64,000 bases of DNA, taken from contig JAFDVS010000026.1 of the NCBI GenBank assembly GCA_018268935.1, positions 124,001 through 188,000 on the forward strand, in the 5' to 3' direction. The DNA is from Acidobacteriota bacterium. Its GTDB lineage: Bacteria > Acidobacteriota > Terriglobia > Bryobacterales > Bryobacteraceae. A model generated the notes under the pieces. The model was not told the origin of the DNA. It did no database searches and worked only from the letters and a program-made list of their open reading frames with translations. Both the position numbers and the translations under genes were made by a program. This document shows, in pieces, positions 4,903 through 13,963 of the stretch; position 1 is the stretch's first letter; every line of letters starts with the position of its first letter.

Positions 4903-7825
<2,923 letters not shown>

Positions 7826-7829
<4 letters not shown>

Positions 7830-8170
7830 GATTTCTGCTCCTTGAGTTGATCGAGGTAGCTGTCCAACTGATCGAGGCGCCGATCCCACAAAGCACGCTG
7901 CTTTTCCAGCCAGTTTGATGCCGCTCGCAGCGGTTTCGGGGCAAGTTGGTAGGTTCGCACCCGGCCGGATTTCCGCGAAGTCACCAACCCGCAATCCTCC
8001 AGCACACGTAGGTGTTGGAGAAAAGAGGGCAGTGCCATTGGGAAAGGCTGTGCTAATTCCGTTACAGCCGCCGGCCCGCTACTGAGGCGCTCGATGACCG
8101 CCCGCCGTGTAGGATCAGCCAGACCGTGAAAGACTGAGCTCAATTGCTGGGAGACCTGTTGGTTAGCCAC
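7826..8170 (-). CDS. ArsR-family (metal-independent, SdpR-like) winged-helix regulator
   Basis: 114 residues from a GTG start. The winged helix is typical: [16 protein letters not shown], then [25 protein letters not shown], then [16 protein letters not shown]. The cysteines of metal-sensing ArsR proteins are not present. This subgroup commonly sits with an AHSA1/SRPBCC gene, as here (ATGA overlap). No ribosome site precedes the GTG; instead a -10 box ends 8 bases before it, so the mRNA is probably leaderless. Inverted half-sites around the promoter suggest autoregulation. Confidence 0.9.
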
Positions 8171-8173
8171 TTG

Positions 8174-8219
8174 CCTAAGTATAGAGGCACGACGATGCTT
8201 AGGTCAATACCTAAGCATC
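8174..8219 (-). promoter_or_regulatory. arsR promoter embedded in a three-half-site operator
   Basis: On the minus strand the -35 TTGACC (8207 to 8202) and -10 TATACT (8183 to 8178) are 18 bases apart, and only 7 bases separate the -10 from the GTG at 8170. An 11-bp inverted repeat (GATGCTTAGGT 8194-8204, CAAT, ACCTAAGCATC 8209-8219) encloses the -35. A third half-site CCTAAGTAT (8174-8182) covers the -10. This fits repression of its own promoter by the ArsR product. It is read directly from the sequence; binding is inferred. Confidence 0.7.
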
Positions 8220-8229
8220 TGGACGGGGA

Positions 8230-9678
8230 TTACCGCCCCAACTGGCAGACTTCGTGCACCGCCCGCACCGCCTTCTCAAGACCATCGCGGCGAACAACAA
8301 TGGCGATCGTCAATTCCGAAGAACCTTGCGCGATGGCGATGATGTTCACGCTCTCCTGCGAGATCGCCGTGAAAATGCGACCCGCCATGCCTGTGGTGCC
8401 CCGCATGCCTTCGCCCACAATCGCCAGCAGACCGACGTTCTCATCCACCTCGAACGGCTTCAAATACCCATGCGCCAGTTCCAGAGCGAAGGTGGTTTCC
8501 AACGCGTCGGTAGCGCGCGCCAACTCATCGCGGCGAATGAGGAAGCAGAAGCTCTGCCGGTAGCTGGAGCTGGTGAGTGCCAGCACTTCAGCGTTGGATG
8601 CGGCGAGTGCTGCCAATGAGCGCGACATTACCTGCACTGCGTTCAACTCGGGATCCGCTGGGGCAATAGAGACGAGCGCTACATTGCCCATCGAAGTGAC
8701 AGCCCGCGGGCCCTGAGGCGCATCCACCTTTGGGGCAATCCGTGTTCCCGGCGCAGCGAGGTTGAAGCTGTTCTTGCTCCACACCGGAATGCCCTTCTCC
8801 ACCAGTGGGGCCAGTGTTCGTGGATGCAGTACCTTCGCGCCATTGTAAGCCAGTTCCGCTGCTTCGCTATAGGTAACTTCGGGTAACACAACGGCGGTCG
8901 GAACCAGGCGCGGGTCGGCCGTCATGATGCCGTCGACATCGGTCCAAATCCAAAGATCCGTGGCGTCCAGAACCGCAGCCAGAATAGAGGCCGAAAAATC
9001 GGACCCGCCGCGGCCAAGGGTTGTAGGACGCCCATCCATGGCGGCGCCATTGAACCCGGTAACGACCGGCAGAATGCCTTTCTCCAGCAGCGGTTCCAGA
9101 ACGGAAGCGGCCTTCTCCCGCGTCGGATCCATCAATGGTGTCGCGTTGCCGAACACAGCGTCGGTCACCACAACCTGCGCCGCATTCACCGCTTTGGCCG
9201 GTATACCGCATGCTTCGAGGTGCGCTGCCATGAGGAGAGCCGAAAGACGCTCGCCTACCGCCACCGCCTCATCCACAGAGCGTGGTGGACGCTCGCCAAG
9301 CATCTGCACGCCCTGCGCAATACGCCGGAAATCTCCGATGATGGAATGCAACTCCGACAACACGGCAGGCTGGCGATCTGTGGGGAGAAGCTCGCAGCAC
9401 GTGATGACATGCCGCTGCTCCAATTGCGCAAGATTTGTATCGAGCGCTGTGCTGTCACCAGCCTCGGCCTTTCGCAGTGTGTCGAGTAGCAAGTCGGTGA
9501 CCTTCGACATAGCGGAAACAACGATGGTGACAGGACGCTGTTTGTGTTGTTCGGCGCAGATCAGGCCGGCGGTGCGCATCCGCTCAGCGGAACCCATGCT
9601 GGTGCCGCCGAATTTCATGACGAGCAATTGCTGCAAGCGAGAATATCCTTTCGATCCGGGGGATGACTCCATTATCAC
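8230..9678 (-). CDS. lysC: Aspartate kinase, monofunctional
   Basis: Phosphorylates aspartate at the start of the lysine, threonine and methionine pathway. 482 residues from the GTG at 9678, which has AGGAGG four bases before it; an ATG two codons on is also possible. The kinase core shows VMKFGGTSMGS, VSAMSKVTDLLL, GRGGSDFSASILAA and WTDVDGIMTADPR. Two ACT domains follow, the second with VGEGMRGTTGMAGRIF. These C-terminal motifs resemble the ThrA/MetL branch, yet no homoserine dehydrogenase is fused. It diverges from cydA with about 50 bases between starts. Confidence 0.95.
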   Translation of the reverse strand: MIMESSPGSKGYSRLQQLLVMKFGGTSMGSAERMRTAGLICAEQHKQRPVTIVVSAMSKVTDLLLDTLRKAEAGDSTALDTNLAQLEQRHVITCCELLPTDRQPAVLSELHSIIGDFRRIAQGVQMLGERPPRSVDEAVAVGERLSALLMAAHLEACGIPAKAVNAAQVVVTDAVFGNATPLMDPTREKAASVLEPLLEKGILPVVTGFNGAAMDGRPTTLGRGGSDFSASILAAVLDATDLWIWTDVDGIMTADPRLVPTAVVLPEVTYSEAAELAYNGAKVLHPRTLAPLVEKGIPVWSKNSFNLAAPGTRIAPKVDAPQGPRAVTSMGNVALVSIAPADPELNAVQVMSRSLAALAASNAEVLALTSSSYRQSFCFLIRRDELARATDALETTFALELAHGYLKPFEVDENVGLLAIVGEGMRGTTGMAGRIFTAISQESVNIIAIAQGSSELTIAIVVRRDGLEKAVRAVHEVCQLGR

Positions 9679-13442: not shown

Positions 13443-13963
13443 CGTGCGGCCCTCGACGGGCGTTTCACGCCGAGCAGGATGCGCGCCCGGGCGCGCATCG
13501 CGGGTGTGCCGTGAGTCAAGGCGTGCTCCAGATGGAGCATTGCCTCGTCGAGCAGCGAAGAATCCATCTGGGCAAGGTCGTACATCGTCTGCAACGAGAA
13601 TGTCCGAACGATGGAACTCTTGCTGCACAGCCACTGGCCGACGGTTTCAAAGGCTTCCCTTCGCTCCTCCGCTGTGAGCGGCAGCAGCGGTAGCATGAGG
13701 CAGACGTGTTCTCTCACTTCCCAATATTCAAATCGGGCGAGCATATCGAGAACGAACCGCTTGTAAGGGTGTATCAGGTGCGGCTGTGCCGAAGCCACAA
13801 ACTCCAGCGCGTCCGCCGCTCTGGAAATGAGCACACGATCTTGTGAGTCGAAGGCTTCCAGGAGTTCGGGAAGGAGTTCGGGGTGCGCGAGAACCCGTTT
13901 TGCGACAGCCTTCGAGTTCCCGAGTGATTGCCGGGTGCCACCGCGCAGGCGGTTGAGAAGCAT
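13439..13963 (-). CDS. HEAT-like alpha-helical repeat protein
   Basis: 174 residues, no signal peptide, mostly helical. Repeating amphipathic helices such as LLPELLEAFDSQDRVLISRAADALEFVAS, FEYWEVREHVCLMLPLLPL and SSIVRTFSLQTMYDLAQ look like HEAT or ARM repeats, which usually bind other proteins. No catalytic motif is seen. Its stop overlaps the presumed TTG start of the S41 peptidase, so the two are coupled. Function is unknown. Confidence 0.7.
   Translation of the reverse strand: MLLNRLRGGTRQSLGNSKAVAKRVLAHPELLPELLEAFDSQDRVLISRAADALEFVASAQPHLIHPYKRFVLDMLARFEYWEVREHVCLMLPLLPLTAEERREAFETVGQWLCSKSSIVRTFSLQTMYDLAQMDSSLLDEAMLHLEHALTHGTPAMRARARILLGVKRPSRAAR

Follow-up and report, generated by a model that had tools for sequence, protein, structure and literature searches.

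A probable leaderless, autorepressed ArsR-AHSA1 operon with a predicted operator centred on the arsR start codon

Described gene pairs and leaderless repressors

Pairs of small, overlapping genes encoding an ArsR-type regulator without the usual metal motif and an AHSA1-family protein have been described as ArsR-COG3832 modules, several to a genome (Makarova et al. 2009, PMC2701414), for which a resistance role was rated likelier than a toxin-antitoxin role. The layout of promoter and operator is not treated in the portions of that article available to us, and 'leaderless', 'palindrom' and 'start codon' do not occur in its text. As far as the available sections of the source go, the AcuR-AcuI-DddL operon of Rhodobacter sphaeroides has its autorepressor gene first, an inverted repeat over the promoter and a leaderless transcript, with the 5' end placed at the AUG by 5' RACE; Shine-Dalgarno (SD) sequences precede its later genes only, the layout occurs in several lineages and the authors regard leaderless transcripts as unusual in Gram-negative bacteria (PMC3017554). 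The repressors lambda cI and Tn1721 tetR, which belong to other protein families, are likewise made from leaderless mRNA (cited in the consulted parts of PMC3017554 and PMC3848588). Within the ArsR family, the consulted part of the report on Rv2034 (PMC3338718) describes a self-repressing protein whose gene is followed by one for a polyketide-cyclase-like domain and whose palindrome is CCGTAAGT-N4-ACTTACGG.

The arsR locus, its promoter and its repeats

The window, meaning the whole stretch of DNA that was analysed, comprises 64,000 nucleotides of an Acidobacteriota genome (GCA_018268935.1). On its minus strand, an aspartokinase gene is followed by a 59-bp gap, arsR and an AHSA1/SRPBCC gene (Table 1), and positions 8171-8229 make up the entire interval from the lysC-like stop (8230) to the arsR GTG. 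As in the ArsR-COG3832 modules, arsR is directly followed by the AHSA1-family gene (PF08327), with an ATGA overlap; as in the AcuR operon, the predicted operators (O1 and O2) lie over the promoter, and AAGGAG precedes the AHSA1 gene, with none before arsR. Six ArsR homologues are encoded in the genome, and tblastn of the 3.2-3.3 kb around each of the other five gave no SRPBCC match.

Table 1. Positions of genes, promoter elements and repeats in the window
Feature	Positions	Strand	Basis or remark
lysC-like aspartokinase gene, upstream of arsR	8230..9678	-	ORF; Pfam AA_kinase and ACT domains; context only
O1, perfect 11-bp inverted repeat, loop ATTG, half-sites CTTAGG/CCTAAG, covers the -35	8194..8219	.	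genome-unique
-35, TTGACC	8202..8207	-	orthologues have TTGACC or near, 16-18 nt from the -10
-10, TATACT, 7 nt ahead of the start codon	8178..8183	-	7-nt gap in 56/175 homologues
O2, imperfect palindrome TTAGGCAA/GTGGCTAA; right arm = codons 1-3	8163..8178	.	6/9 pairs, core 4/5; dyad-0 peak in homologues
GTG start codon and putative transcription start	8168..8170	-	7 nt past the -10; orthologues have GTG/ATG in the same place
arsR, winged-helix repressor, 114 aa	7826..8170	-	HTH_20 and HTH_5 above cut-off; model pLDDT 92.4
Recognition helix, codons 47-59, including Q52	7994..8032	-	helix 47-59 in model; residue/half-site association
AAGGAG, likely ribosome site of the AHSA1 gene	7838..7843	-	sequence reading
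AHSA1/SRPBCC gene, 163 aa; ATGA overlap with the arsR stop	7338..7829	-	PF08327, E 1.2e-28

The arsR product exceeds the cut-offs of three ArsR-type winged-helix profiles (HTH_20, 43.2 bits, cut-off 27; HTH_5, 34.5, cut-off 22; NF033788, 77.6, cut-off 55), and its predicted model (mean pLDDT 92.4) has the winged-helix order of helices and strands, with residues 47-59 helical. Assignment to the SdpR autorepressors (NF033789) was rejected, at 53.4 bits against a cut-off of 100. The usual metal-binding motif of ArsR/SmtB regulators is a cysteine motif of the ELCVCDL type. No such motif occurs in the 114-aa protein, whose one Cys, C60, is Ala in homologous loci L003 and L013; a metal-sensor reading was rejected on this absence, and since there is no recognisable metal site, ArsR is used here as a family name.

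A sequence-only reading of the interval had placed the -35 inside an 11-bp inverted repeat and the GTG exactly seven bases past the -10. Both statements hold: the repeat is perfect at 8194-8219 on the minus strand, and TATACT ends at 8178 with the GTG beginning at 8170, so that seven nucleotides (8177-8171) separate the two, behind a -35/-10 spacer of 18 nt. The match to the promoter consensus is not significant by itself (2 found, 1.2 expected in 4 kb) and was discarded as uninformative when taken alone.

Read along the minus strand, O1 consists of GATGCTTAGGT (8219-8209), ATTG (8208-8205) and ACCTAAGCATC (8204-8194), that is, of 11-nt arms that are 100% complementary and spaced by 4 nt. The 26-mer occurs once in the 9.0-Mb genome, and CTTAGGN6CCTAAG with at most one mismatch is found at two places in it, exactly here and once elsewhere; written backwards, the same pattern is found 52 times per strand, against the two places forward. 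O1 is one of two perfect inverted repeats in the window with arms of at least 11 and a loop of at most 10, the other being a G+C-rich palindrome of 22 bp (11 + 11, no loop) at 13478-13499.

RNA of this stretch is predicted to form a strong fold (-23.3 kcal/mol, z -5.23), which would suit O1 as a terminator or processing hairpin ending lysC. We rejected that role as highly improbable: a scan shows no terminator-like site here, O1 contains the -35 and has half-sites in common with O2, and it is not tied to lysC. Specifically, among the fetched loci (some with little upstream DNA, L011 most of all), those with a lysC-like gene upstream of arsR are all copies of the window locus, and the repeats therefore belong with arsR.

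The -10 does lie within a third half-site, as the sequence-only reading had it, but this half-site is the left arm of the imperfect palindrome O2, whose dyad falls between 8171 and 8170, directly before the GTG; the three half-sites of that reading become four, in two palindromes. Both arms of O1 and the left arm of O2 have CCTAA, and the right arm of O2 has GCTAA. On the further argument that their similarity makes chance unlikely, O1 is genome-unique, and the O2 of the window, at 6/9 pairs, is, like the 7-nt gap, weak when taken alone, becomes credible through its relatives and is not counted among the loci with at least 7/9 pairs given below.

Recurrence of the layout in homologous loci

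Protein searches for homologues covered relatives of the window genome (30 loci and 40 further places, best first, two skipped), named genomes, 20 of 492 plasmid records (chosen by rank and variety), genomes harbouring L002-L004 and draws from the groups of those genomes. Start codons were assigned by a rule that ignores both the -10 and the palindrome. Set 1 comprises 99 of 104 loci, window included (the rule gave no start for L008, L032, L040, L042 and L085, which were dropped); set 2, fetched after set 1, comprises 52 of 54 (L135 and L167 dropped); and set 3, for which the prediction was recorded beforehand, comprises 26 of 26. Duplicates (L001, L045, L111, L112 and L113) were removed. Two loci, L048 and L050, come from a DNA pattern search and not from the protein search: the window-type pattern with at most one mismatch has seven matches in 396 genomes of the phylum, namely the window, these two and four lacking an arsR match (L044, L046, L047 and L049). 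Both were excluded from the synonymous-codon comparison and from the arm-match and -10 counts, and included in the set 1 scan, the O1/O2 half-site comparison, the tree and the residue table.

In set 1, palindromes of at least 7/9 pairs have their dyad on the first base of the start codon at 28 loci, against at most five at any of 90 other offsets, and among the 64 SRPBCC-linked loci 28 have a -10 gap of seven, as do 3 of the 35 others, with other gaps in at most four and three, respectively. The same dyad and gap recur at 16 and 13 loci of set 2 (other offsets and gaps, at most three and three) and at 10 and 14 loci of set 3 (at most two and three). Apart from the pattern-derived loci, the 7-nt gap is present in 42 of 149 homologues plus the 14 of 26 in set 3. 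Among loci without a detected SRPBCC partner, the dyad is found in 2/35 in set 1 and in 6/11 in set 2. The latter count led us to reject SRPBCC linkage as the deciding factor, as the partner is evidently not required. Carriers of the 7-nt gap together with a palindrome of at least 6/9 include Kovacikia (a cyanobacterium), Devosia, Rhizobium rhododendri, Diaphorobacter, Burkholderia arboris and Pseudonocardia, and the palindrome is present and the -10 absent in the archaeal Natrinema locus; the layout is found in related genes across several phyla.

Many of these loci are closely related, and GTTCAG is common to 13 of the 60 loci with the dyad at offset 0. Built from 147 rows and 100 columns, the tree has poor resolution and shows 22 changes of O2 and 24 of the -10 layout; it therefore fits a single or a repeated origin alike.

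Other arrangements were seen as well. Spaced GGTTAT-like repeats lie about the arsR start codon, in place of the dyad, at L028, L056, L057, L063, L137, L140 and L147. At L014, L020, L025, L029, L030, L039 (a paralogue in the genome of the window) and L052, arsR seems to come directly after a gene with an AHSA1-tail-like end and has no promoter or operator at its start, a different operon type. In 4 of the 20 plasmid records (L100, L101, L103 and L105), a dihydrofolate reductase family gene adjoins the ArsR-SRPBCC pair.

The arms of O2 match each other as expected of a DNA site. In 42 loci picked by the -10 alone, the left arm matches its own right arm at 5.14 of 6 positions and at 3.39 when arms are swapped between loci (0 of 5000 permutations); the mean match in the 107 loci without that -10 is 2.21. 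Upstream repeats also resemble the O2 half-site of their own locus more closely than that of other loci (8.25 versus 7.37; 0 of 5000 permutations; 60 loci with the dyad at offset 0, close kin kept in); O1 and O2 have lineage-specific half-sites in common. Furthermore, codons 2-4 (GCT AAC CAA in the window) have 26/26 synonymous matches in five loci of at least 67% identity, against 312/727 (43%) in the rest of the gene, a level that none of 93 other three-codon windows equals. In ten loci of at least 60% identity the counts are 47/47 and 1211/2855, in a comparison that counts same-residue pairs only and to which L119-L121, which lack O2, contribute little. Because this coding stretch is both synonymously constrained and symmetric with DNA that is presumably untranscribed, it is best read as a predicted operator.

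For the most part, the orthologous loci show the conservation that the sequence-only reading requires. Of the five nearest protein-found loci (L010-L013 and L091; 67-75% identity to the window), L010, L011, L013 and L091 have the 7-nt gap, L012 (69%) has no good -10 at that distance, and an O2 core of 4/5 or 5/5 accompanies the gap in four of the five. The window, L010 and L013 have a clear O1; in L011, L050 and L091 it is weaker or reduced to a half, and L012 shows none. The distance between O1 and O2 is 34-36 bp in the window, L010, L013, L050, L092, L093, L107 and L124, and differs elsewhere.

At greater distance, O2 is absent from seven homologues of 57-67% identity among the alphaproteobacterial draws (L119, L120, L121, L170, L173, L175 and L192) and present in others of that range, such as L171, L177 and L174. 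Five of the seven have an O1-like repeat; at L120, which seems to have a leader, its arms are lengthened to CCAATACTTAGGTC/GACCTAAGTATTGG. A -10-like hexamer still lies 6-7 nt ahead of the ATG in L121 and L126. These loci would suit a gene that is leaderless and autorepressed through O1 alone, with O2 decayed in the window and its -10/GTG region unbound, as would the 6/9 pairing of O2 here and a right arm that departs from the half-site expected with Q52. The synonymous preservation of codons 2-4, which extends to the window, and the O2 cores and gaps of its nearest relatives weigh against repression through O1 alone, which we consider unlikely, although it is the most serious of the alternatives.

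In the window, no SD-like 4-mer occurs at -20 to -5 before the GTG, in agreement with the earlier description of arsR as free of a ribosome site. Such 4-mers precede 1 of 42 arsR genes of the layout, 11 of 107 other arsR genes and 22 of 41 second genes. An ordinary leadered gene, transcribed from further upstream or by read-through from lysC and translated from the GTG or from a TTG at codon 10, would be compatible with the position of lysC upstream on the same strand with no recognised terminator, and L119 and L120 look leadered. We nevertheless deem it quite improbable for the window, given the missing SD-like 4-mer, a -10 fixed at 7 nt across the sets, and a reading frame that near orthologues preserve from a GTG or ATG in the same place, with codon-sized length changes after it. 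A GTG as leaderless start has mixed precedent: in the available parts of the sources, the 171 leaderless starts mapped in S. meliloti are all AUG, partly through the definition used for the map, and non-AUG leaderless codons are cited as inefficient in E. coli (PMC3616915), and GUG makes up 29% of leaderless starts in P. acnes (PMC3848588). Comparison supports the leaderless, self-repressing unit proposed in the sequence-only reading, for which we infer the start point, binding and repression.

Where the residue aligned with Q52 is Q, the base after the start codon is C in 16 of 18 loci; where it is K or R, the base is G in 37 of the 38 loci having C or G, and one more K locus has A. The predicted base was found in set 3 for Q (7/7) and K (4/4), and one locus with L has C. 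The extension of the rule to R was rejected, as G was predicted and A was found twice and T once (0/3 in set 3). The window, with Q52 and G, is one of the two exceptional Q loci. These associations are suggestive of a half-site that varies with the ArsR recognition helix; the residue and base traits change only 4 and 6 times in the tree, and an independent-pairs test would need more. The same small numbers leave some room for palindromes that serve a regulator other than this ArsR; we find this very hard to credit, as half-sites vary with the helix of ArsR, changes in O1 and O2 go together and the genome has no second copy of the exact O1. Since the right arm of O2 (GCTAA) deviates from the CCTAA half-site associated with Q52, O1 is expected to be the stronger here: the window probably has a strong site in O1 and a weak one in O2.

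Proposed regulation and comparison with known systems

We think it fairly likely that the two genes form a leaderless operon that ArsR itself represses at two operators. With TTGACC-N18-TATACT as its promoter, RNA polymerase would start at or beside the G of the GTG; the arsR mRNA would have no leader and be translated from its 5' end, and the AHSA1 gene would use its own ribosome site. An ArsR dimer would bind O1 over the -35, plus O2 with its dyad at the start point and start codon, and the bound protein would block polymerase entry and the melted start region until a signal of some kind releases it. The right arm of O2 would double as codons 1-3, and the first residues of the protein would therefore be set in part by the DNA site.

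We lean, if only slightly, towards a more general reading, in which the homologues represent a widespread class of autorepressors. Their operator would be partly coding, with its dyad where transcription and translation both begin; the conserved N-terminal codons would be maintained for the DNA site and not for the protein, and the recognition helix would reveal the half-site (CCTAA or CTTAA for Q; GCTAA, GTTCAG or GTTGAA for K). If so, a protein sequence could suffice to predict the operator of many an uncharacterised ArsR-AHSA1 module; such gene pairs are frequent and have received little study. From a constant arrangement of -10, 7-nt gap and start codon at the dyad, one could derive the start point, start codon and operator of every such gene and correct gene starts. 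The layout would also supply naturally occurring data on DNA reading by ArsR recognition helices, link leaderless translation with self-repression, Gram-negative bacteria included, and amount to a compact self-regulating switch that is directly testable.

The closest solved relative by sequence is PDB 3f6o, of the ArsR family (E 7.1e-32). It shares MALPSF in the recognition helix and has K in place of Q52, for which the association predicts G, not C, beside the start codon. Among the matches listed in the open PMC literature (titles and abstract openings), we found no description of an ArsR operator centred on a start codon. According to the available parts of the two reports, AcuR differs from the window in belonging to the TetR family and in having its operator, TAATAGAC-N6-GTCTATTA, upstream, where it overlaps the promoter and is not centred on the start codon (PMC3017554), and the footprint of Rv2034 spans -30 to +3 on the coding strand, counted from the start codon, which puts its palindrome upstream of that codon (PMC3338718). 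The gene pair and autorepression by an ArsR-family protein are already known, and among the matches listed the start-codon-centred layout appears to be new.
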